A DNA stretch of 12,188 nucleotides from Candidatus Lindowiibacteriota bacterium. Its GTDB lineage: Bacteria; Lindowbacteria; 2-12-FULL-62-27. The stretch is taken from NCBI GenBank assembly GCA_023249255.1, contig JAHFCY010000083.1:1-12188 (forward strand), read 5' to 3'. The position numbers and the translations under genes were made by a program. This document shows positions 2,034 through 12,188 of this stretch, piece by piece (position 1 is the stretch's first letter; every line of letters begins with the position of its first letter). The notes beneath the pieces are model-generated. The model was not told the origin of the DNA, searched no databases, and saw nothing but the letters and a program-made list of their open reading frames with translations.

Positions 2034-2930
2034 TCAATCGTTCTTGGCATATATCGCCTTGATCTGTGCGGCTGAGAGCGATCGATTACCAGATGAGGGT
2101 GATCGACCACGCGCCCCGGATCCGGATGTGTTAGTCGGCGAACGAACATCAACAGGGAACGTCTGTCCACCACCGCTACCCACGCTGGAATACCGGGATT
2201 GCGCCTGCTCCAAGAGCGCTATGGCGCCACCACCGCCCGTGGAAGCAGAACTTCCGACCGGCCCGATCACAATGCCGCCACCCTTGGACGCGCCGGACGC
2301 GGCGCCTGCACGGATTTTGGCCTGTCGCTCTTCATACATTTCCTTGCTCGGAATGCTGCCCGCCGGAAGGACACCTTCCTCAAGATAGTCCTGGATCACG
2401 GTCGATTTTGGCGCCTTCTCTCTCGCCTGCCTTGCTTGATCGTACTCGGTGCTGGTCATTTGCGGCGATATTCCGCCGGTGGCGATATAATCGCTGATCC
2501 TTTTGGCGCTCGTGGTTTGTTCCCTCACCTTTCGACCAGCCTCGACCTCGACGTTGGTCATTCCGGGCGTGATTCCTCCCGTGGCAATATAATTTTGAAC
2601 GAGACTGGCCCGGGTCTTTTCTTCCCGCACCTTGCTCGCCGCATCGTATTCTTTACTCGTCATGTCCGGAGATCGCGCTCCGCGTTCAATGTAATCCCTC
2701 ACCCTTTCAGCGCTTTTTTTCTGATCGCGCATATTCGACGCTTGATTGTATTCTTCGCTGGTCATATCCGGGGGACGTGCGCCCCGTTCGACATAGTCGT
2801 TTATCACGTTCGCCCGAGGGCCACGGAGCGCACACCACCCAACCACTTCGGTCGACAAAAGAATCACCAGTGCCAGCAATCCACAAATCGTCAATCGAAC
2901 GTTCCCATTCGATCCGCCTCGTTTCGTCAT
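2034..2930 (-). CDS. Exported protein with five 34-residue repeats and shared C-terminal tail (fourth gene of operon)
   Basis: This 298-residue protein is of unknown function. Residues 1-34 look like a Sec signal peptide (basic start, hydrophobic stretch ~13-30) ending before L-R-G-P at 35-38. Four exact-length 34-residue repeats follow (44-77, 78-111, 112-145, 146-179), with a divergent fifth at ~180-214. The repeat consensus is [NRQS]-[DN]-Y-[IV]-x-x-G-x-x-x-P-x-M-T-x-x-E, ending in basic/acidic helix-like sequence around R-[DE]. A Gly/Ser-rich linker leads to the tail R-S-L-S-A-A-Q-I-K-A-I-Y-A-K-N-D, shared with the three upstream genes. I chose the ATG at 2930 because GAGAGGG lies 9 bases before it; the in-frame ATG at 2939 has no room for that site. 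The upstream gene's stop is at 2947. Confidence 0.88.
   Translation of the reverse strand: MTKRGGSNGNVRLTICGLLALVILLSTEVVGWCALRGPRANVINDYVERGARPPDMTSEEYNQASNMRDQKKSAERVRDYIERGARSPDMTSKEYDAASKVREEKTRASLVQNYIATGGITPGMTNVEVEAGRKVREQTTSAKRISDYIATGGISPQMTSTEYDQARQAREKAPKSTVIQDYLEEGVLPAGSIPSKEMYEERQAKIRAGAASGASKGGGIVIGPVGSSASTGGGGAIALLEQAQSRYSSVGSGGGQTFPVDVRSPTNTSGSGARGRSPSSGNRSLSAAQIKAIYAKND
2457..2805 (-). repeat. 102-bp tandem coding repeats (34 residues each)
   Basis: Four in-frame units spaced 102 bases apart encode the Y-[IV]-x-x-G...P-x-M-T repeats of the fourth exported protein. They are easy to see on the plus strand as successive blocks starting near 2457, 2560, 2662 and 2762. They have diverged at DNA level, so they are old or under protein-level selection rather than freshly duplicated. 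Confidence 0.85.
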
Positions 2931-2946
2931 TTCTCTCATCCCTCTC

Positions 2947-3882
2947 TCAGTTCTTGTCCCTCATTCTGATGGCGGCCACCTGGGCCGGTGACAGAGAACG
3001 CTTCGACCCGGAGCTGCTTGGCGATCCGCCCTTGGGTTTACCGCTCGAAGAAACCGGCGCCCCCGGCTTTGTCTTCTTGGGCGCTCCATGTTTGGAAGCA
3101 CCGGGCTTGCCTTTGGGGGTTCCAACGGCCGCTGGATCTTCAGATGATCCCGCACTCCCCGCCTCGGCCAGCAATTTATCCTTGTCGCCTCCGCCCTCCG
3201 CCTCTACACCCGCCTCAATGTCACCGGCTTTTTTATTTTCTTCGGCGCTTACGCGATTTCTTTCCTTCGTTCCCTCGATGAGTTCATTCTGAAGTTCCGG
3301 CACGTCCTCTGTGTAGCGTTTCTCCCACTCCGCATCCAGCGAAGGTCCCGGACGACCAAGAGATGCGTCCCCCCGCCGGGCTGAGCGCGCCTCGGCGTCA
3401 TCCTTATACGAACTGCGAATTTTAACAGGCTCATCTGCCGACTTCCCAAGGCCAACATCGCCACCATCCGCCTTGGGTGTATTTACCCAACCGGGGCTGG
3501 GTGATTTGTCGCCTCTGTTTCGAATCGGTTCATCTGAAATTGTTTCTGTCTGCCGAAGGACGGTCGACGATTTGTCGGCCCCTTTTGCTTTCTTAAAACG
3601 CGACAGCATGTTTTCAATGGATTTTTCTGGCGTTGTTCCCCATTCTTTTATGTCTTTCGGCGGTGTCGGGCTGTTGGCAATTTTCAGATATTCATTTATC
3701 ACTTCCCGCGCATTATTCTCCGTCGCAATCACTTTGTCGCCGAGCGGGTTTGTTTTCATCGGCTTTACCCCGCTGGGTCCGCGCAGACCGGCGTTTACGG
3801 GTTCGCCCGTGAGAAATAGGACAACGACCCAAGCCAAACACACCACGGAAATTTTCCAGATACTCGAACCATGCCTGTCCAT
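2947..3882 (-). CDS. Exported low-complexity protein with shared C-terminal tail (third gene of operon)
   Basis: This 311-residue protein is of unknown function. A signal peptide (hydrophobic ~12-25) ends near V-N-A, followed by G-L-R-G-P at 32-36. The body is hydrophilic and apparently disordered: a short helical stretch at 57-70, a charged region at 180-240, then a Lys/Pro/Gly/Ser-rich segment (~250-292) with repeated G-x-P-K and K-P-G-A elements. The last 17 residues are R-S-L-S-P-A-Q-V-A-A-I-R-M-R-D-K-N, matching the tails of its operon partners. The ATG at 3882 lies three bases past the stop of the preceding gene (3886-3888), and a GGGAG site overlaps the end of that gene. No catalytic motif is visible. 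Confidence 0.88.
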   Translation of the reverse strand: MDRHGSSIWKISVVCLAWVVVLFLTGEPVNAGLRGPSGVKPMKTNPLGDKVIATENNAREVINEYLKIANSPTPPKDIKEWGTTPEKSIENMLSRFKKAKGADKSSTVLRQTETISDEPIRNRGDKSPSPGWVNTPKADGGDVGLGKSADEPVKIRSSYKDDAEARSARRGDASLGRPGPSLDAEWEKRYTEDVPELQNELIEGTKERNRVSAEENKKAGDIEAGVEAEGGGDKDKLLAEAGSAGSSEDPAAVGTPKGKPGASKHGAPKKTKPGAPVSSSGKPKGGSPSSSGSKRSLSPAQVAAIRMRDKN

Positions 3883-3885
3883 ACG

Positions 3886-4689
3886 TCAATTATCTCCCTT
3901 CGCGTATATCGCTTTGATTTGTGATGCACTGAAACTTCTTTTTCCGGATGTTGATCCCGTCGTCGTGCGCGAGGATTGGGCGGATCCATTCCGCGCCCTG
4001 GCCTGTTGACCCCTGGGACGGGTGCTTATGGTCACCGAACCATCGTCATTTATTCTCGCGCCGGGATTGGACAAAAGCTCTTTGACCTTCTCATCCAGCC
4101 GGTTGGTTAGTTTCGGATCGCCATAATTGTCTCCCGCCATCCTTTTTTTATAGGATTCGATTCCAGTCCGACTCGCCCGCACAGCCTCATCATCATGACC
4201 GCGCCGGCCGTATTTCATGTCCTCATCCATCGCCCGTTGAATACGCTCTCGTTGTGCCTGTTCGCCCCTCATGTCTGCATCCAATCCCCGCTGTATTTGC
4301 TTCCGGCTCTCCTCCGCGCCTTTGAGGTCTTCATCAACGGCCGCTCGCATCCGTCGCTTACTTTCGGCCATTCCTCTGAGATCTGCGTCCAAGGCATTTT
4401 CGCGCGCTGCGAAATTTTGTTTTTCGGCGTCCAAGCGTTCTACAAGTTGACGCTCACGTATCGCCGCCTCCTGTCGATCGTCAGGCTGCGAGGCTTTCAA
4501 GCGAACCTCTCGGGCCTTTGCCACCTCGTCGGTTATCCCTTCAATGCGGCCGGCCCGTTTATCCTCATTTTCTTTAATTGGTCGATTGTTGAACGGTTTC
4601 GATTGTTTCGGCCCGCGCAGACCGGCTATTGCTCGATCTCCGCCGAACAATAGAATCGAGACAAACACAAAACAGATGCATCGAGTCAT
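3886..4689 (-). CDS. Exported helical protein with 18-residue repeats and shared C-terminal tail (second gene of operon)
   Basis: This 267-residue protein is of unknown function. The signal peptide (M-T-R-C-I-C-F-V-F-V...) ends at A-I-A, followed by G-L-R-G-P at 23-27. Residues ~40-200 are highly charged and should form a long helix or coiled coil. Within them an 18-residue unit, D-x-D-[LM]-[RK]-G plus a basic helical part, repeats at 101-118, 119-136 and 137-154, with a partial fourth copy from 155. A linker leads to the tail R-S-F-S-A-S-Q-I-K-A-I-Y-A-K-G-D-N. The frame stays open upstream to 4803, but the ATG at 4689 gives the signal peptide at the N-terminus, has GGAGG 12 bases upstream, and lies one base from the upstream stop (TAATATG). 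Confidence 0.9.
   Translation of the reverse strand: MTRCICFVFVSILLFGGDRAIAGLRGPKQSKPFNNRPIKENEDKRAGRIEGITDEVAKAREVRLKASQPDDRQEAAIRERQLVERLDAEKQNFAARENALDADLRGMAESKRRMRAAVDEDLKGAEESRKQIQRGLDADMRGEQAQRERIQRAMDEDMKYGRRGHDDEAVRASRTGIESYKKRMAGDNYGDPKLTNRLDEKVKELLSNPGARINDDGSVTISTRPRGQQARARNGSAQSSRTTTGSTSGKRSFSASQIKAIYAKGDN
4210..4389 (-). repeat. 54-bp tandem coding repeats (18-residue helical unit)
   Basis: About 3.5 in-frame units encode the D-x-D-[LM]-[RK]-G repeat of the second exported protein. Eighteen residues equal five turns of an alpha helix, so each unit would put the same charge pattern on the same helix face. This suggests a rod, spacer or binding surface. Confidence 0.8.
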
Positions 4690-4690
4690 A

Positions 4691-6469
4691 TTATTTGCTC
4701 GCCTCCTTGGCCTTGATCGCGGCGACCTGAGAAGACCCCAGCGAACGTCCGCCTGAACTGGGTTTGCTGGACGCGGGCATGAACGGCTTTGCCGCCCCCC
4801 CATGCGCTGAAGCAGAAGTGGAAATCATAGGCCTTGTCTGGCCGACATTCGGCCCCGTTCCGAGCAGCACCTCCGGGCGGCTATAATTGACGTTGGCCAT
4901 TGCCAAGAGTTGGGTTGATGGTGGTGCGTTCGCCGGAATATCGTCGGGCGCCTTGTGGCGAAGCGCTTCGGCGATAGCCTCCCGCTCCTGGCGGGACTGC
5001 TCCTCCATCTGTTGCGGTGTCAATCGTTCCATTGGGACTTGCTGTTGTTGTTGAGGCGTCGGTTGTGGGGCGAGGACGTGCGACAAAGTTTGATTTTTAC
5101 TCACAGCGTCGGTTGGCAGAGTTCTTGCGAGACCCTCTATGACACTCATCCGCTCTTTGATGTTGTCGGCATTCGTGTAGGCCGAGTTTGTGTATGCCTG
5201 TTCAAGTGATTTTGCCGCCTCGTCGTAACGACCCTGACTCCGCAAGTCGCTGAATTTTTCTACTGCGTCGCTGTATTGGCGATCATGCACGTTGATCTCC
5301 GCGCGCCGCAGCCCCTGCTGGATGACATTGACATCTTCTTGGGTCTTCGGATCCCAAATATTGCCGTATTTCGCGTGTATATCGTTTATTTGTTCTTGCA
5401 GATGATCATTAGCCGTCGAGGTCCGTACAACAGGAGCGGATGCCGGTACTGGATTGCCGACGGGAGCGTGCGCACCGTCTGAGGGAGGAATAGTTTTTGG
5501 AGAAGAGGTTTTGGAGTTTGATTTTGTACCATGTTGTCGGGCGGACTCTTGTGCCTGGCGTTGGGACTCTGCCTCTGCATTTGCCGCTTGCCGATCCCGC
5601 TCTTGCCACTTTGCTCGCACCTCCGCGTCTTCTCGTGCTATCTGCTCCAGGGTTCTGTTCACCGCCGCAGAAGCGGGCGAACTCGCGCCCGCCGATTTAT
5701 TGACATTGGATGCGGTCTTTGTCCGTGACTCACGTTCCTTCAATATTTGCGCATCTTCTTTTTGTTTTTCACGGATGAATTTATCAACCTCGGCCGGCGT
5801 TCCAGTAATGAAATGCGATGTGTTGGGGTCGGCGACGGATTGGTAACTCCGACTGATGATGCCAGGCGGATTTGAGGACGATGCCCGCGGATGCGGTGAG
5901 GCTGGCTTGGGTGTTTTCGAAGGCCGATCGTGCGAAATCACGTTTGCCGGTTTCTGTTCATCAGAGGCGACCTGAGAGCCGGACGAAGCCGTCTGAGCTG
6001 ACACTTCTGCGCGGCGTTTCTTCAATCGAGCCAGAAGAGTCGCAATGGGATTGATATCATCGCCGAAAGCCTTGACCTGTTGCGACAATCCGAACGATGG
6101 CATGGGTCCACGTCCCAACCGTTCGGGCGTTGAGGTTGGTGAAGATCGCGTAATGAGAAGTTGGCGGACGACATGGCCACTCTTTGTTACATAACCACCC
6201 ACCCCATAATCCTCATCATCTGCGAAAAGCGGCGGAACAACATTGGCACTCCCACCACTGGAATATGGATGAACAATATTTAAGGGGGTAACCCAATATT
6301 GCGAGATTCTGCCGGCGGCGTCGGCGGGTGTGGATATTAAGGAAGTGTCGTGGAGTAATGGCCTCAGCGAAACATGGGTGCCGCGCAACAAACCGGCTGC
6401 CGACGGGCCGGCAAAAACCAGTATTCCCCCGATCAAGGACACCAACCAAATCATTTTGGCTTTCGGCAT
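4691..6469 (-). CDS. Large exported protein with coiled coil, TPR-like stretch and shared C-terminal tail (first gene of operon)
   Basis: This 592-residue protein is of unknown function. The signal peptide (hydrophobic ~7-20) ends at S-A-A, followed by G-L-L-R-G at 26-30. Residues 35-110 may form a small folded domain (Tyr/Gly-rich, ending V-V-R-Q-L-L-I-T). Residues 225-312 are a charged coiled coil. Residues ~380-450 look helical, with one TPR-like motif around L-R-S-Q-G-R-Y-D-E-A-A-K-S-L-E-Q-A-Y (409-426). A Pro/Gln-rich linker (five Gln at 473-477) follows, and the tail is R-S-L-G-S-S-Q-V-A-A-I-K-A-K-E-A-S-K. The frame is open to 6529, but ATG 6469 has a GAGGGGG ribosome binding site 4 bases upstream and puts the signal peptide at the N-terminus. 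It is the promoter-proximal gene of the operon. Confidence 0.9.
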   Translation of the reverse strand: MPKAKMIWLVSLIGGILVFAGPSAAGLLRGTHVSLRPLLHDTSLISTPADAAGRISQYWVTPLNIVHPYSSGGSANVVPPLFADDEDYGVGGYVTKSGHVVRQLLITRSSPTSTPERLGRGPMPSFGLSQQVKAFGDDINPIATLLARLKKRRAEVSAQTASSGSQVASDEQKPANVISHDRPSKTPKPASPHPRASSSNPPGIISRSYQSVADPNTSHFITGTPAEVDKFIREKQKEDAQILKERESRTKTASNVNKSAGASSPASAAVNRTLEQIAREDAEVRAKWQERDRQAANAEAESQRQAQESARQHGTKSNSKTSSPKTIPPSDGAHAPVGNPVPASAPVVRTSTANDHLQEQINDIHAKYGNIWDPKTQEDVNVIQQGLRRAEINVHDRQYSDAVEKFSDLRSQGRYDEAAKSLEQAYTNSAYTNADNIKERMSVIEGLARTLPTDAVSKNQTLSHVLAPQPTPQQQQQVPMERLTPQQMEEQSRQEREAIAEALRHKAPDDIPANAPPSTQLLAMANVNYSRPEVLLGTGPNVGQTRPMISTSASAHGGAAKPFMPASSKPSSGGRSLGSSQVAAIKAKEASK

Positions 6470-6480
6470 CAATCCCCCTC

Positions 6481-6495
6481 GGTGGGACACCCACC
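6481..6495 (-). promoter_or_regulatory. 5'-terminal hairpin in the operon leader
   Basis: GGTGGG-TGT-CCCACC is a perfect 6-bp stem with a 3-base loop. From the promoter, transcription should start near 6494, so the RNA would open directly with this hairpin, followed at once by the GAGGGGG ribosome binding site. A 5'-terminal stem of this kind can protect an mRNA from 5'-dependent decay or tune initiation; the role here is inferred. Confidence 0.5.
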
Positions 6496-6500
6496 AAGAG

Positions 6501-6529
6501 ATTGTTCCACGCCGGGAAGAGAGTGTCAA
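6501..6529 (-). promoter_or_regulatory. Promoter of the four-gene exported-protein operon
   Basis: Read on the minus strand, a perfect -35 TTGACA (6524-6529) is followed by a 17-base spacer and a -10 AACAAT (6501-6506, 4 of 6 matches). It is placed to start transcription ~25 bases before the ATG at 6469. It overlaps the upstream open frame, which is further reason to prefer the 6469 start. Confidence 0.7.
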
Positions 6530-6761
6530 TATCTATGAACGAGTGGTTTAACTACGCACCTTGCGTCCCCCTCACTTCACAATGCAAATGTCCAAGGATC
6601 GACCATCTGAAAATCAACGGGTTATGAGATTTTTTCGGAAGACCGCCATCAAAAGCACCCCTTCCCTGCTATGGGGTAGAGAACCTCCGGCCGGCCACCA
6701 CATATCCGGCGGTCGGGAACAATTTGTCCGGACACTCCGGATCGGGAGGATGGTCTAGGAA
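6530..6761. other. Divergent intergenic region upstream of the ORF6N gene
   Basis: No gene is seen. It holds four TCCGG elements (starting at 6686, 6705, 6727 and 6736), a 10-bp palindrome TGTCCGGACA (6725-6734) and overlapping CCGGCCGG/GGCCGGCC (6687-6696). These could be protein-binding sites for divergent control, but the short GC-rich motif could also be chance. Confidence 0.35.
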
Positions 6762-7460
6762 ATGGATTCTGTTGACAACAGGATTGATGGCGGCGATACT
6801 GCCCACACTGTGCGTGCGGAGAAATCGATCGTTAGGAAGCCAATCATCGCAGAGATTGAGCACCGGATTTACACCATCCGGGGCGCCCAAAGAGTCATGT
6901 TGGACGAAGATTTGGCATGGCTCTATGGCGTTCCCACGAAGTCGCTCAATTTGGCCGTTAAGCGGAATATAAACCGCTTCCCGCCGGATTTCATGTTTCA
7001 ACTAACAAAATCCGAGTACGATTCTTTAAGGTTTCAAATTGAAACCTTAAAGAAGGGACGCGGTCGGCATCGTAAATACATGCCTTATGTCTTCACCGAG
7101 CATGGTGTGGCGATGCTGTCGGGTGTTTTGAACAGCCCGAGGGCAATCCATGTAAACATTCTCATCATGCGGGCGTTTGTTCGGATGCGGCAGGTGGTGG
7201 CGGCGAGTGAAGCGTTGACGCGATTGGTCCGGGAAATTGGAAAGAAGGTCGGATCACACGGGAAGACATTACTGAAACACCAAGAGGATATCTCCGCCAT
7301 TATCGAAGCATTGGATCGCCTGATGAATCCACCGCGGACGCCAGTTCTTGGATTTGTTGTTGATCAACCTGAAGAGGGAGAGTCCGGATCCCACCGACGA
7401 AGGGGACGGGGAACAATATCCCATGTCCAGAAATGCCGGAAGAAGGTAAAAATGGATTGA
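6762..7460 (+). CDS. ORF6N-domain DNA-binding protein
   Basis: This 232-residue protein is a clear ORF6N-domain protein (PF10543; KilA-N/Bro-related DNA-binding domains common in phages and mobile elements). Signatures are Y-T-I-R-G then V-M-L-D-E-D-L-A-W-L-Y-G-V at 37-57, the segment with A-V-K-R-N-I-N-R-F-P-P-D-F-M-F-Q at 65-80, and F-T-E-H-G-V-A-M-L-S-G-V-L-N-S-P-R-A-I at 111-129. A helical region follows (140-188), then P-P-R-T-P-V-L-G-F, where many relatives end; the last ~30 basic residues are extra. Residues 88-98 are encoded by a perfect 33-bp palindrome (7022-7054). The ATG at 6762 lacks a well-spaced ribosome binding site. A GTG at 6810 directly after a promoter-like sequence gives an N-terminus closer to family length and may be the true start. 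Confidence 0.93.
   Translation: MDSVDNRIDGGDTAHTVRAEKSIVRKPIIAEIEHRIYTIRGAQRVMLDEDLAWLYGVPTKSLNLAVKRNINRFPPDFMFQLTKSEYDSLRFQIETLKKGRGRHRKYMPYVFTEHGVAMLSGVLNSPRAIHVNILIMRAFVRMRQVVAASEALTRLVREIGKKVGSHGKTLLKHQEDISAIIEALDRLMNPPRTPVLGFVVDQPEEGESGSHRRRGRGTISHVQKCRKKVKMD
6772..6800 (+). promoter_or_regulatory. Candidate promoter inside the 5' end of the ORF6N reading frame
   Basis: TTGACA (6772-6777), a 17-base spacer and GATACT (6795-6800, 4 of 6) lie just inside the annotated ATG. Transcription would start near 6807, three bases before an in-frame GTG at 6810, giving a leaderless message. Confidence 0.45.
7022..7054. repeat. Perfect 33-bp palindrome within the ORF6N coding sequence
   Basis: Arms of 16 bases (left arm TTCTTTAAGGTTTCAA) flank a single central A at 7038; every pair is complementary. 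It encodes residues S-L-R-F-Q-I-E-T-L-K-K of the ORF6N protein. The central 17 bp, GGTTTCAA-A-TTGAAACC (7030-7046), recurs with a central T at 8467-8483. Confidence 0.95.
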
Positions 7461-8404
7461 GTGCTCAGACCGATGAATCGGCAACACCCCCTCAATCAGA
7501 AAGTAGCATTAGCCGACCTCCGGAAAGTGCGACTACTCCCATTCCATCCATCCATGTCGGCGCAGCAAGCGGCCATTGGAGCCAGTCACCCCCGAAATCA
7601 ACACGCCCTCACAGCATTCAATTCCCACTTATTGTCTCGGCTATTGGTTTAAGCCTCGCACTCATAACTTTTTGGGGTGGGTCTCCATCACAATTAAGAA
7701 CGAAGAGAAAAATCGATTATCTCGACATCAAGACAGACTCAATAAATATCAAGCTGGGTGTCATTGAGCGACAGCAATCAGAACACACCGACACGATATT
7801 GGGAGCAATCAAACAACTGGTCAAATCCAACATGATCAGTTCAAGTATAGGTAAACCCGCCACCACGACCCAAACTCTATCCCTTACAAAAAATGAGGAC
7901 CAGACGGGCGGGCAATTCCCAAAAAACACACAAACAGAAAAACTATCGGCAAAATCATCCCCGGCAGAATTTTCCAAAAAATATTTTGCCAAATTCACGG
8001 TAGGAGTTTACTGTCTCAAAGGCGATCGGAATTCGAGAGAAATGGCGACAAGAATCATGGAGGAACTCGAACCAAGTGGATTTAAGATTCGACTATTTGA
8101 GAAACCACTTGAATATTATGTTCCGATGCCCACTTCTGGCCCGTTTGTTCTTTCTCCCATCCAAGGGGTCGAGGTTCGTTATGATGCGGATGAAGAATTT
8201 GCGGCGGCGGATGGCATAGCACGAATTCTATCTCTTGTACTACCCGATGAATATCGGCCGATATACTTGGCTAGGGTGAAAAACAACCCGCCGTTTAAAC
8301 CAACATCCATGTTTATTTCTGTATTTTTCCCAGTTGTTGATTATGAGAAAAAAATACCTTTATCAAAGCCTACGACCGATGGGTCGTATAATTTGGGGGA
8401 ATGA
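7433..8404 (+). CDS. Single-pass membrane protein with possible LytR_C-like C-terminal domain
   Basis: This protein of up to 323 residues is not firmly recognised. It has a Ser/Pro-rich N-terminal tail (1-62), one membrane segment (~63-81, F-P-L-I-V-S-A-I-G-L-S-L-A-L...), a helical region (~95-135), a Ser/Thr/Lys linker (140-180) and a folded C-terminal domain (~187-300). The pattern there, V-x-V-Y-C-L-K-G-D then a helix, G-F-K-I-R-L-F, then V-E-V-R-Y and a second helix, recalls the LytR_C type of alpha/beta domain; this is a resemblance only. The ATG at 7433 overlaps the ORF6N gene by 28 bases and has no good ribosome binding site. A TTG at 7457, overlapping the ORF6N stop (TTGA) with GGAAGAAGG ~10 bases upstream, is an attractive alternative. 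The region is visibly more AT-rich than its neighbours. Confidence 0.8.
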   Translation: MPEEGKNGLSAQTDESATPPQSESSISRPPESATTPIPSIHVGAASGHWSQSPPKSTRPHSIQFPLIVSAIGLSLALITFWGGSPSQLRTKRKIDYLDIKTDSINIKLGVIERQQSEHTDTILGAIKQLVKSNMISSSIGKPATTTQTLSLTKNEDQTGGQFPKNTQTEKLSAKSSPAEFSKKYFAKFTVGVYCLKGDRNSREMATRIMEELEPSGFKIRLFEKPLEYYVPMPTSGPFVLSPIQGVEVRYDADEEFAAADGIARILSLVLPDEYRPIYLARVKNNPPFKPTSMFISVFFPVVDYEKKIPLSKPTTDGSYNLGE

Positions 8405-8405
8405 A

Positions 8406-8504
8406 GTGGTAGGGGAATACGGCGAGGATTTGTTGATCGCGAAGATTCTGGATATGCGGCGGGAGAGGTTTCAATTTGAAACCTCAAACCCGCAGACGAC
8501 GTAA
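8406..8504 (+). CDS. Possible 32-residue ORF resembling the start of the 401-residue protein
   Basis: A GTG start at 8406 follows GGGGGA (8395-8400) and overlaps nothing else on its strand. The peptide contains E-D-L-L-I-A-K-I-L-D-M-R-R-E-R-F, which aligns with E-D-S-P-I-A-D-I-R-D-M-R-L-E-M-F at the N-terminus of the 401-residue protein. Over 51 bases the DNA matches at 38 (8419-8469 against 9346-9396, by eye). It then runs into the 21-bp palindrome and stops. It could be a real mini-gene, a broken copy of the longer gene, or a leader peptide. Confidence 0.35.
   Translation: MVGEYGEDLLIAKILDMRRERFQFETSNPQTT
8465..8485. repeat. 21-bp perfect palindrome, second copy of the ORF6N-gene palindrome core
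   Basis: Arms of 10 bases (GAGGTTTCAA) flank a central T at 8475. The 17-bp core differs from the copy inside the ORF6N gene only at the central base. It sits inside the 32-codon mini-ORF in the same reading frame as in ORF6N, giving R-F-Q-F-E-T here and R-F-Q-I-E-T there. Confidence 0.95.
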
Positions 8505-8516
8505 GGACGATTCCTG

Positions 8517-8585
8517 ATGAAGCGATATCCAAGACAGGACACCTTGATGTCGTATTTTGCGACCCCGAAGGAGCCGCCGAGGTAA
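8517..8585 (+). CDS. Possible 22-residue ORF
   Basis: A short ORF (M-K-R-Y-P-R-Q-D-T-L...) is preceded by a good ribosome binding site, TAAGGA at 8502-8507, which overlaps the stop of the previous mini-ORF. I know of no relative. It is reported because the site and the spacing are good, not because of any protein similarity. Confidence 0.2.
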   Translation: MKRYPRQDTLMSYFATPKEPPR

Positions 8586-8592
8586 AAATGTC

Positions 8593-8733
8593 ATGAGCTA
8601 CGAATACTGTCCCAGGTGTCAGAAGTTGGAATACACGACCGTTTCCACATCACTCCGGTTCGACAAGACGGGCATCGGAGAATTTTTGAAAATACACCGC
8701 GCCACGAAGGGCGATAGAAAATGGGGTGTTTGA
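8593..8733 (+). CDS. Possible 46-residue zinc-ribbon-like small protein, perhaps frameshifted
   Basis: An ATG at 8593 follows GAGGT with 9-10 bases spacing. The peptide begins M-S-Y-E-Y-C-P-R-C-Q-K-L, so it has one C-x-x-C knuckle, but the second cysteine pair that a complete zinc ribbon needs is missing. In a second frame from about 8666 the sequence reads Q-D-G-H-R-R-I-F-E-N-T-P-R-H-E-G-R before a stop. This loosely recalls the second half of small two-knuckle ribbon proteins and hints at a frameshift. The stop at 8731-8733 is four bases before the ATG of the next gene, so translation may be coupled. Confidence 0.4.
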   Translation: MSYEYCPRCQKLEYTTVSTSLRFDKTGIGEFLKIHRATKGDRKWGV

Positions 8734-8737
8734 GGCA

Positions 8738-9334
8738 ATGTCCTCCGTCATAGAATTTTCAATTGTCCAAGGCGACATAAGTTTATTTGAGGCGGATGTG
8801 GTCGCGTTTAAATACGCTGGTAATTTCTATGGTGTAGAGAAGATTATAGCTGATCGTTTTCGCGAGAAGTTCATTCCAACTGAACGACTGATTCCGACCG
8901 GCAGGGAATATAGTTTTGAGGATACTCATGGCTGTATCACGGCACCCCGCGCTCTTATCGTGAAGGCGAGGGAACTTTCAGAATTTGATTACGACGACAT
9001 AAAGAAATTCAGTATGGATGTGCTCCGGATATTAGATCCTTTGGCCCCGAACATTAAACACTTGGCCATGACAATTCACGGGCGGCATTTGTTCCCCGAT
9101 GAAATCAGGCTGGTTCGTTCCCAATTGGATGGGATTAGAGAGGCATTGTCCAAAGGCGAAGTTCCCCTATTTTTGAATAAAATCACAATCGTTGAAGCCG
9201 ATCCCGAATGTGTACAACGTCTACAAATCGGCCTTGAACCCTATCTCAAACTATTTGGAAAGATGTTACCAGAGCGGTGGGGGTTTCGTCTGTCGTTTGA
9301 AGATAGCCGAGTTTCAGATCACGGAGAGACATAA
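8738..9334 (+). CDS. 198-residue protein resembling a macro-like/CHAT-associated domain
   Basis: The start I-E-F-S-I-V-Q-G-D-I-S-L-F-E-A-D-V-V-A-F-K-Y recalls the first strand and helix of macro-type folds (V-x-G-D-I followed by D-x-[IV]-[VI]). The middle has L-A-M-T-I-H-G (109-115) and a later strand K-I-T-I-V-E-A-D-P (148-156). I associate this combination, T-I-H-G with a terminal I-V-E-x-D, with proteins and domains that accompany CHAT/caspase-like peptidases. That is memory of a pattern and is not verified. A GTG at 8726 is also in frame; I prefer the ATG at 8738, four bases after the preceding small ORF. The stop overlaps the next gene's start by one base (TAATG), so the two are surely co-translated. 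Confidence 0.78.
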   Translation: MSSVIEFSIVQGDISLFEADVVAFKYAGNFYGVEKIIADRFREKFIPTERLIPTGREYSFEDTHGCITAPRALIVKARELSEFDYDDIKKFSMDVLRILDPLAPNIKHLAMTIHGRHLFPDEIRLVRSQLDGIREALSKGEVPLFLNKITIVEADPECVQRLQIGLEPYLKLFGKMLPERWGFRLSFEDSRVSDHGET

Positions 9335-10539
9335 TGGTATACAACGAGGATTCGCCGATCGCGGATATCCGGGACATGCGACTGGAGATGTTTCCGGATA
9401 GTTGCCGAGAGACCATCGTCAAATTTCAGCAGTTGGACAAACTCTCCGATGACGAAATCGACTTTGTGGTGTCGTATGTAATGTTGCGGGTGAAAGAGGT
9501 CGGACAACTGACGCATGCCATCCGAGTGGCCTCCGCCGATCTTGGGGGAAGGATGGCGAAGGTGTTTTTGTCGAAGCAGGTGACTATTACCAACGAACCC
9601 GTCAAACTGTGGGCCATAATTCTCGCCCAGCGTGAATTTGTCAACAACGCCTGTTTTCTTTATAGTCGTGGAAATTTGCAAGTGAAAATCGAACCCGTTC
9701 TTGGACCGAACCTCTATTGGGAAGATGCGACTCCCCTTACGGATATAAACAGCGCTCAAAAAAATAAATTACAATTAAAAAAACTCCTGGCGCAGCGGGC
9801 GCGAACGGATGGCCCTCCATACGAAGAAGATCCCTGCCGTCAGCAGTTGGACCGCCTTCCAAGGCGAAATCCGCCTCCGACCGAATCTGAAGAAGAATGG
9901 GAACAGGTCATAACAAGCCAGGATCCAAAAATCCGCGAACGATTAAAAAAAGCCGAGAGAATAGACAGATGCCTGACCGATTTCGTTGTATTGTTTGCCA
10001 AACATCTTTGGCCTCTCAGTCGGGGACTGGGCATCTCCATCGACGATCCGCTACCGAGCGCCGACCCCAACGTGATTTTGGATGACCACCTTGACACGAT
10101 AAGAAAAGGAGAAGCTTCCGCATTTCTAACATTGGATATAATAAACGAACCAATATATCTTTATATTTCCCCCGGCCTTGCCGCAGAGGTGGCCGATGCC
10201 TTCGTCGACCAATACACTTATCAGATTGATGGAGACGTTCAACGTTTCATCATTCAGCATTTTTATGAAACCGCCGAAGATTTTTTACGTTGTGCGTTCG
10301 AAAAAACGCTGGGACTTAAAACGAAGAGATATCATATATGCGCGAATCAGACGGCGGCCGAGGAGTTATTCTCTGAATATGCCGGCGCTCAGATGGAGAA
10401 TTTTCACTACGGCATTAATTTCGGGGAGCGCAATCCCGACTACCCGGCCGGCCATCTTTTGACGGTTGCGATCCCCGTGAAATTACTCAATTTTGTACAA
10501 TCACGCGAAACAGATCATTCCACAGTACGAATTTCCTGA
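9334..10539 (+). CDS. 401-residue protein of unknown function
   Basis: I do not recognise this protein. It has no signal peptide or membrane segment. Residues 35-65 are helical, followed by a hydrophobic region (~75-125). A charged linker (~140-215, rich in R, K, E, P) separates it from a C-terminal part that ends in a strand-rich section (E-N-F-H-Y-G-I-N-F-G-E at 355-365, then L-L-T-V-A-I-P-V). The TAATG overlap with the 198-residue gene points to a two-protein module, perhaps a complex. Its first 20 residues resemble the mini-ORF at 8406. The 3' end overlaps the convergent gene by 25 bases. Some histidines and cysteines in the C-terminal part (Y-H-I-C, H-Y-G) could be functional, but no known catalytic pattern is evident. 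Confidence 0.87.
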   Translation: MVYNEDSPIADIRDMRLEMFPDSCRETIVKFQQLDKLSDDEIDFVVSYVMLRVKEVGQLTHAIRVASADLGGRMAKVFLSKQVTITNEPVKLWAIILAQREFVNNACFLYSRGNLQVKIEPVLGPNLYWEDATPLTDINSAQKNKLQLKKLLAQRARTDGPPYEEDPCRQQLDRLPRRNPPPTESEEEWEQVITSQDPKIRERLKKAERIDRCLTDFVVLFAKHLWPLSRGLGISIDDPLPSADPNVILDDHLDTIRKGEASAFLTLDIINEPIYLYISPGLAAEVADAFVDQYTYQIDGDVQRFIIQHFYETAEDFLRCAFEKTLGLKTKRYHICANQTAAEELFSEYAGAQMENFHYGINFGERNPDYPAGHLLTVAIPVKLLNFVQSRETDHSTVRIS

Positions 10540-12188
10540 TATCGCCTGTAGAGGGGCCTGATGTTCTTGCCGCTCAAATATCGCCGAATTTCATCCGGGT
10601 TGTCTAACGAAAGAGGATGACCGGCCCTCTTTTCGGCCTGTTTGATCGCCTTCGCAACCGCGGCGCTTAGGCCGGCGTCTCTTTCCTTGCCCAACAACTC
10701 CTGCTCCGGATTGGCGCGACGCGCGGGCATGGCTTCTCCCAGCGACAAACCATCAGTACCGTCTATAGGCGCGTCCAAACTTTTCATACCGCGCGCGGGA
10801 TTTTCGAGTCGATATTCTTTCATTGTGCCGAGATGCGTCAACAATGCCTTTTGACGGAGCGTATACCTTGGATCATCTTTGATCACGCCCCATATTTCCT
10901 GATATGACTGTTGCAACGTCTTTGCCTGTTCCCCAGCCGTCGATTCTTCATGAAAGATGTCCGGCGGCGGTTTTTTTGAAAGATTGCCCAGTGTCTCCAC
11001 CTTATTTCGCTCCACCCACTTGCCATCAACTTTTTTCATTCCACGATAAACGAATTTCAAATCCAACGGCACTTCGTCCGGGATGGTCACAGGCTTCTTA
11101 TAGACTTCGTATCCCCTGGGCTTTTTACCCAATTCTTGTACATACGGAAGCTTTGAGCCGTAGGTAATGTCGTCCGCACTGTTCACACGATACCGCGATG
11201 GTTCGGCCTCAAACCCGGGCAGGCCCTCTTGGGAGGCATCGGCCAACTGTGAGCCGCCACCCGGAGAACGAATTTCCCGGCCAGTGGCTGCATCGACCAT
11301 TCGTCCCGTTTTCGGATTAACGAGTACATCACGCCCTCCAACCTTCATTTTTTCCAGTGTTGCGGTTGAAACTGGTCCTTGGATTTTCCCAATTTTCTGC
11401 GGACGTTTTTCAATCCCTTTTATACGGCCGGCCGGATTTAACCGTTGAATCGCCTGTACCGTCACATCGTCAAAAACATCCTTTACTTCGTTTCCCAAAT
11501 CCGCCCCATATCTGCCTTTGATTTCTTCGATGCCACGCGGGGAAACCTGCCCCTTAACTATTTTTTGGGCTTTCTTTATTGCAGCATTTCTCTCTATATC
11601 CCCAGGCGCATTTTTGATTTCTTCTAAAAGCGTTTTTATAGAGGATGGCGTACGCTCGTTTTGCGTGGCCGGCCCCCGGCGTACAGGTGGATTTTTTAGG
11701 GCTTCGATCGTGGCGTCAAGTTCCGCCCTCTGCTTTGCTTCGCCACCGGTTGACACCCCCGAACGGATATTTTGTTTATGACGCTGAAGTCGCTCCGCCA
11801 CCGATCGGCGCGTTGTCTCGTCGGCATTGGCGTAACGTTTCATCACGGATTCCAGCGGCGCCGCCTTCCAACTTTCGGGCGTGAGCACATCCGCCCGCGT
11901 TCTTTTCTTGAATTCTATTTTGTCGGAAAACTCGGGCGCATCTTTGCCGGCGGCGCCCGGACCCGCTCTGCCCGGATTTGCCTGCGCGTATTCTCGCGCT
12001 TCCTGCGAGTATGGATCGGTCGGTGGCGCACGCGGTCGGGCGTTTTTCGTTGAAACCAACGGTTCTCGGAGAGCCTCGTTGACTGTCCTTAATTCCTCCG
12101 ATGACAGGCTCTCCTTGATCTTGGGATCCCGCATTGCTGCGATCAGATTTTTCTTGGCGGTCTGAATTTTTTGGTTGGCACGGGCGGC
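10515..12188 (-). CDS. Large unknown protein, C-terminal 557 residues (partial)
   Basis: The frame is open to the window edge; the first visible residues (A-A-R-A-N-Q-K-I-Q-T-A-K-K-N-L) continue smoothly into the rest, so the real start lies outside. The protein is hydrophilic and mostly helical, rich in K, R, E and P. A short segment, V-N-P-K-T-G-R-M-V-D-A-A-T-G-R-E-I, occurs near the middle, and a possible folded region around F-V-Y-R-G-M-K-K-V-D-G-K-W-V follows. No signal peptide, membrane segment or catalytic motif is visible. It lacks the tail shared by the four exported proteins. Size and composition would fit a large polyvalent or virion-associated protein of a mobile element, but that is a guess. 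Confidence 0.88.
   Translation of the reverse strand, partial: AARANQKIQTAKKNLIAAMRDPKIKESLSSEELRTVNEALREPLVSTKNARPRAPPTDPYSQEAREYAQANPGRAGPGAAGKDAPEFSDKIEFKKRTRADVLTPESWKAAPLESVMKRYANADETTRRSVAERLQRHKQNIRSGVSTGGEAKQRAELDATIEALKNPPVRRGPATQNERTPSSIKTLLEEIKNAPGDIERNAAIKKAQKIVKGQVSPRGIEEIKGRYGADLGNEVKDVFDDVTVQAIQRLNPAGRIKGIEKRPQKIGKIQGPVSTATLEKMKVGGRDVLVNPKTGRMVDAATGREIRSPGGGSQLADASQEGLPGFEAEPSRYRVNSADDITYGSKLPYVQELGKKPRGYEVYKKPVTIPDEVPLDLKFVYRGMKKVDGKWVERNKVETLGNLSKKPPPDIFHEESTAGEQAKTLQQSYQEIWGVIKDDPRYTLRQKALLTHLGTMKEYRLENPARGMKSLDAPIDGTDGLSLGEAMPARRANPEQELLGKERDAGLSAAVAKAIKQAEKRAGHPLSLDNPDEIRRYLSGKNIRPLYRRYQEIRTVE

Follow-up and report, generated by a model that had tools for sequence, protein, structure and literature searches.

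Four adjacent genes at positions 2034-6469 of the window (the whole stretch of DNA analysed, which is the complete contig C335 of 12,188 bases) encode exported proteins whose middles are unrelated and whose ends are common to all. This central claim of the preliminary description is confirmed by the gene layout, the signal peptides, the tail profiles and blastp comparison of the cores, and the observation is both sound and unusual. Our preferred reading, held tentatively and with a rough probability of 0.4, is that the four are co-expressed, elongated envelope proteins which dock via a common C-terminal helix. New protein-sorting systems have repeatedly been discovered through short ends that unrelated exported proteins have in common, and the present set shows the pattern of such a tag without the membrane helix used by all the tag systems compared here. 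Since, in addition, the host phylum is represented by three species in the genome collection searched, and the first gene appears to have been exchanged between element-like copies, the operon is compact and open to testing as a candidate for a further means by which proteins are gathered beyond the inner membrane.

The operon and its products

The host genome comprises 3.35 Mb in 366 contigs and is estimated to be 89% complete. The four tightly spaced genes lie on the minus strand, as do all features of the operon given below, in the order P4-P3-P2-P1, separated by 1, 3 and 7 bases. The last gap depends on the start of P1, for which the ATG at 2939 yields 301 residues and a gap of 7, and the next in-frame ATG at 2930 yields 298 residues and a gap of 16; of the spacings originally described (1, 3 and about 16), the first two stand and the third holds with the ATG at 2930. 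Purine-rich runs resembling ribosome-binding sites are found upstream of the gene starts, and a promoter-like site, TTGACA-17-AACAAT with a TG before the second hexamer (6501-6529), precedes P4, the first gene, and is also kept in a second copy of this region on contig C141. A single promoter-like site in front of near-contiguous genes implies co-expression.

P4 (592 residues; 4691-6469) consists of a signal peptide, the mature start GLLRGT, a core rich in Ser, Pro, Ala and Gln with predicted long helices, a linker and the tail RSLGSSQVAAIKAKEASK. In P3 (267 residues; 3886-4689) the signal peptide and GLRGP are followed by a charged, probably helical core with 18-residue repeats, and again by a linker and the tail RSFSASQIKAIYAKGDN. 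P2 (311 residues; 2947-3882) likewise has a signal peptide, GLRGP, a linker and the tail RSLSPAQVAAIRMRDKN, here enclosing a core rich in Gly, Lys, Ser and Pro, and P1 (301 residues; 2034-2939) has a signal peptide, LRGP, five repeats of 34 residues predicted to be helical, a Gly/Ser-rich linker and the tail RSLSAAQIKAIYAKND.

Shared ends

All four proteins end in a Ser/Gly-rich linker and a C-terminal tail of about 16 residues, RSLSxxQIxAIxAK, and all four of these segments match the tail profile (HMM A1), that of P4 with E 1.4e-13 in the sample. When a profile was built from three tails and the fourth was sought, with E-values scaled to the six-frame open reading frames of the genome, the segment was recovered in P4 (4697-4780) at E 0.0016, in P3 (3889-3972) at 2e-6, in P2 (2950-3036) at 0.012 and in P1 (2037-2120) at 3.3e-8; no non-member scored better than E 90.

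Over the 15 tail codons dS ranges from about 1 to infinity and dN from 0.34 to 1.1, with dS near or beyond saturation in most pairs, the sequences being short and the figures accordingly rough. In all six pairs dS exceeds dN, which argues that the protein sequence was kept as the DNA turned over; on this comparison the tails are old and constrained rather than recent duplicates. Since only four tails from one genome enter into it, the claim of conservation is one made within the operon. An ESX-type YxxxD tail was considered and rejected, this motif occurring in P1 (YAKND) and P3 (YAKGD) only and being absent from P2 and P4, and Sec signals being present on all four.

At the other end, the N-terminus of each protein holds a single hydrophobic segment, and elsewhere no 19-residue window rises above a KD of 1.6. 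Judged from hydrophobicity and the sequence of the cleavage site, rather than by a trained predictor, P1-P4 probably carry Sec-type signal peptides. The putative signal peptide and mature start, matched by the head profile (HMM A8), lie at 6365-6445 in P4, 4594-4671 in P3, 3760-3837 in P2 and 2802-2879 in P1. LRG stands at the same mature-start position in all four, and none of 400,000 shuffles yielded any common tripeptide there. The head profile is itself weak, leave-one-out recovery being clear for P3 only (E 0.0047), so that the tail bears most of the evidence for the shared ends.

Cysteine is absent from the mature proteins, counted from the residue before LRG onward. A lipoprotein nature was rejected, as there is no Cys at +1 and the Cys of P1 lies just before the predicted cleavage site (VVGWCA), which misfits a lipobox. 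An Omp85-family match in the host genome makes an outer membrane likely, and 'exported' can thus mean periplasm or surface.

Unrelated cores

No pairwise blastp match among the cores of P1-P4 was better than E 0.37. The 34-residue repeats of P1, xxVxDYIxxGxxxPxMTSxEYxxAxxxRE (2304-2813), give a lag-34 autocorrelation of 167 versus a shuffle maximum of 40, and the 18-residue repeats of P3, DxDLRGxxESRxxxQRAx (4213-4389), which are probably helical to judge by their sequence, a lag-18 value of 96 versus 44. The earlier characterisation of the cores as low-complexity or repetitive is thus borne out by the repeats of P1 and P3, those of P2 and P4 being better described as rich in Ser, Ala, Pro, Gly and Lys.

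A single-sequence AlphaFold2 model of P1 consists of an array of repeats of a 26-residue helix, with pLDDT mostly about 80-93 over residues 51-170, followed by a disordered linker (pLDDT below 50) and a short predicted helix at residues 290-299. It is on this model that an elongated core and a tail helix are predicted. No Pfam or NCBIfam model scored above its cut-off for any of the four proteins, and Foldseek with the P1 model returned nothing below E 0.25. The best second-look match, to FF-domain repeats (4fqg) with Z 5.0, was set aside, such a value being common for helical repeats.

Searches for relatives

Profile searches found no tail in the host's own genome beyond the four operon genes, and none in the two phylum mates or in 386 genomes sampled across the domain. 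Likewise, a short peptide pattern and tblastn gave no match in IMG/VR or in 84,980 GTDB r220 species, searches which may omit records near the host genome and which diverged tails could escape. The weak outside tail matches for which a locus was returned were read individually, and none was a true C-terminal tail. The P1 repeat profile picked out P1 alone over 386 genomes, and searches of viral contigs with full P1-P4, and of plasmid and phage records with P1 and P4, gave nothing convincing; this includes a weak plasmid match of P1 under a TPR protein (E 0.03, 21% identity). Narrow term searches of the open-access literature found no identical combination. The lack of a detectable relative sets a limit on the claim as well as on its computational testing.

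The preliminary description had proposed profiles of both ends as a check and had expected many paralogs per genome. The tails were all recovered and the heads weakly so, and as the genome searches returned these four genes only, the expected paralogs failed to appear. It had also named, as a finding that would speak against the idea, a tail confined to this locus as recent duplications. The confinement is what we find in the genomes searched; the recency is contradicted by the near-saturated dS of the tails.

Possible joint docking or sorting

In the explanation we favour, the operon would belong to an element-like region as a cargo module, its four products being co-expressed, exported by Sec and freed of their signal peptides, so that most mature proteins would begin with (G)LRGP. 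The cores would act as long spacers, mostly helical or disordered and showing no sign of an enzyme, and a flexible Ser/Gly linker would present the short C-terminal helix, S-x-x-Q-[IV]-x-A-I-x-A-K, for docking on a single partner common to all four, which would be either a fellow member of the set or an envelope protein, and the four would be assembled jointly in the periplasm or on the cell surface. The common partner, the joint assembly and its location are suggested by the architecture, since ends that are alike on unrelated cores fit a situation in which the ends alone meet a shared partner. To this extent the original proposal that one machinery reads the ends agrees with the data, but no partner machinery was found, and the matrix, co-polymer and bait roles suggested there are candidates. 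Against docking stand the moderate confidence of the tail helix in the P1 model and the poor model of P4, which has no tail helix. Furthermore, the hydrophobic moments of the tail helix (0.04-0.15) are below those of most shuffles; the helix is not amphipathic, and the classical mode of a docking helix or encapsulation peptide is thereby weakened.

A more far-reaching proposal, possible but doubtful, is that this is an undescribed exported assembly of a barely sampled phylum, in which the products of a mobile cargo operon are joined or sorted by a novel, non-hydrophobic type of C-terminal tag together with a novel mature N-terminal motif, the cores changing freely.

Alternatively, the tail could be a sorting or secretion signal, recognised and perhaps cut by a dedicated export or anchoring enzyme, encoded at another place on the element or in the genome, which would carry the proteins beyond the outer membrane in the manner of many-to-one tag systems, an account that we regard as conceivable, if on balance improbable. 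A signal peptide combined with a short homologous C-terminus on unrelated proteins is the signature behind the discovery of PEP-CTERM and GlyGly-CTERM (PMC1569441, PMC3237569), and P1-P4 all possess the N-terminal signal peptide and the homology domain at the extreme C-terminus. Similarity to PEP-CTERM/exosortase, LPXTG/sortase, GlyGly-CTERM/rhombosortase and MYXO-CTERM/myxosortase extends to the unrelated cores and to the occurrence of several members per genome. In PEP-CTERM and GlyGly-CTERM tags, however, the signature motif is followed by a hydrophobic transmembrane stretch (PMC1569441, PMC3237569), and the operon tail is without the hydrophobic C-terminal helix that is a defining part of such systems; unlike them, too, it has only four members in one operon. 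Dedicated tag systems often have the enzyme gene adjacent (PMC3237569), but none is seen in the window, the contig being short and the genome incomplete. The co-occurring membrane enzyme or transporter anticipated earlier did not emerge either, no multi-pass membrane protein or dedicated membrane enzyme being apparent among the window proteins. Membership in LPXTG, PEP-CTERM or GlyGly-CTERM itself was rejected, as there is no hydrophobic stretch and no curated Pfam or NCBIfam tag model matched.

Encapsulation peptides of bacterial microcompartments have a linker-plus-helix layout (PMC12339742), and the operon tails may resemble these and similar docking motifs as terminal segments of about 16-18 residues borne by different proteins on a poorly conserved linker, the helix and the disorder of the linker being predicted in the model of P1. 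They differ in that P1-P4 carry export signals and in that, by its moment, the tail helix lacks amphipathic character. No shell protein turned up in the Pfam scan of the window proteins, and identity with these peptides was rejected, neither the amphipathic helix nor cytosolic cargo with shell genes being found. By analogy, then, the operon may resemble tag and encapsulation systems in its mode of working at most.

Possible old duplication

It is also possible, though we think it unlikely, that the shared ends are the remnant of an old duplication of one exported gene within the operon, the cores having drifted or been replaced and the ends serving the folding, stability or export of each protein with no common partner. 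Near-identical DNA encodes GLRGP in P2 and P3, the tails form two closer pairs, P1/P3 and P2/P4, as duplication predicts, and no partner was found. Yet a near-saturated tail dS with kept residues, next to cores in which no homology is detected, is hard to obtain without selection on the ends, and the reason for such selection is left unexplained by duplication.

A second copy and the mobile-element-like context

The first 8547 bases of contig C141 (L019) form a colinear region paralogous to 6027-12188 of the window, in the order primase, 401-residue protein, remnant of an ORF6N gene, promoter and some 150 codons of P4 (147 aligned), where the contig ends; the assembled part of this operon copy stops within P4. 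The stretch at 6027-6679 (minus strand) is 93.8% identical in DNA to C141 7886-8547. Between the two copies dS is 0.06 in P4, 1.7 in the gene for the 401-residue protein and 0.67 in the C-terminal part of the primase, and over the N-terminal 147 residues of P4 dN is 0.026 (dN/dS about 0.43). The low dN, together with a 9-base indel that keeps the frame, supports coding, and the dS of P4, far below that of its neighbours, suggests that the start of the operon was recently exchanged between the copies or introduced into one of them. The flanking cargo differs, with AbiE and ORF6N/PDC-S05 in the window versus SLFN_AlbA_2 and DUF6745 genes on C141.

Could P1-P4 then serve the element itself as components of a transfer or particle machinery, be it for conjugation or for a phage-like surface? 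A primase of phage/plasmid type in the region and the existence of two colinear copies would fit, but the idea is very unlikely, since the PHROGs matches of P1-P4 were none of them above noise, P1 and P4 have no convincing phage or plasmid relative, and the assembled genome has no TraG-D_C coupling protein, which leaves conjugative self-transfer without support. Less probable still is a defence-island set of exported baits or effectors with swappable cores, directed against phages or rivals, for although an AbiE toxin-antitoxin pair and the ORF6N gene flank the operon, none of the four proteins matches PADLOC and the cores, which match no enzyme family, have a structural look.

Several neighbouring genes may be recorded in their own right. 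The AbiEi/AbiEii pair occupies 355-1940 of the window, convergent with the operon. The ORF6N-domain gene at 6762-7460 matches the PADLOC candidate defence family PDC-S05, and its remnant lies at about 6101-6379 on C141, where 4432-5961 and 6381-7490 encode an SLFN_AlbA_2 plus HATPase_c_4 protein and a DUF6745 protein. A 323-residue protein (window 7433-8404) has a single membrane segment and matches no family. The 401-residue protein (window 9334-10539; L019 3236-4429) is 58% identical between the copies and has no relative detected in 385 other genomes. The DnaG-like primase (window 10515-12188; L019 9-3251) matches phage and plasmid primase families and carries a C-terminal extension of about 600 residues; matches outside the two copies are confined to the N-terminal primase part, the extension having no relative elsewhere, and in alignment columns of about 850-1020 the two copies are nearly identical.
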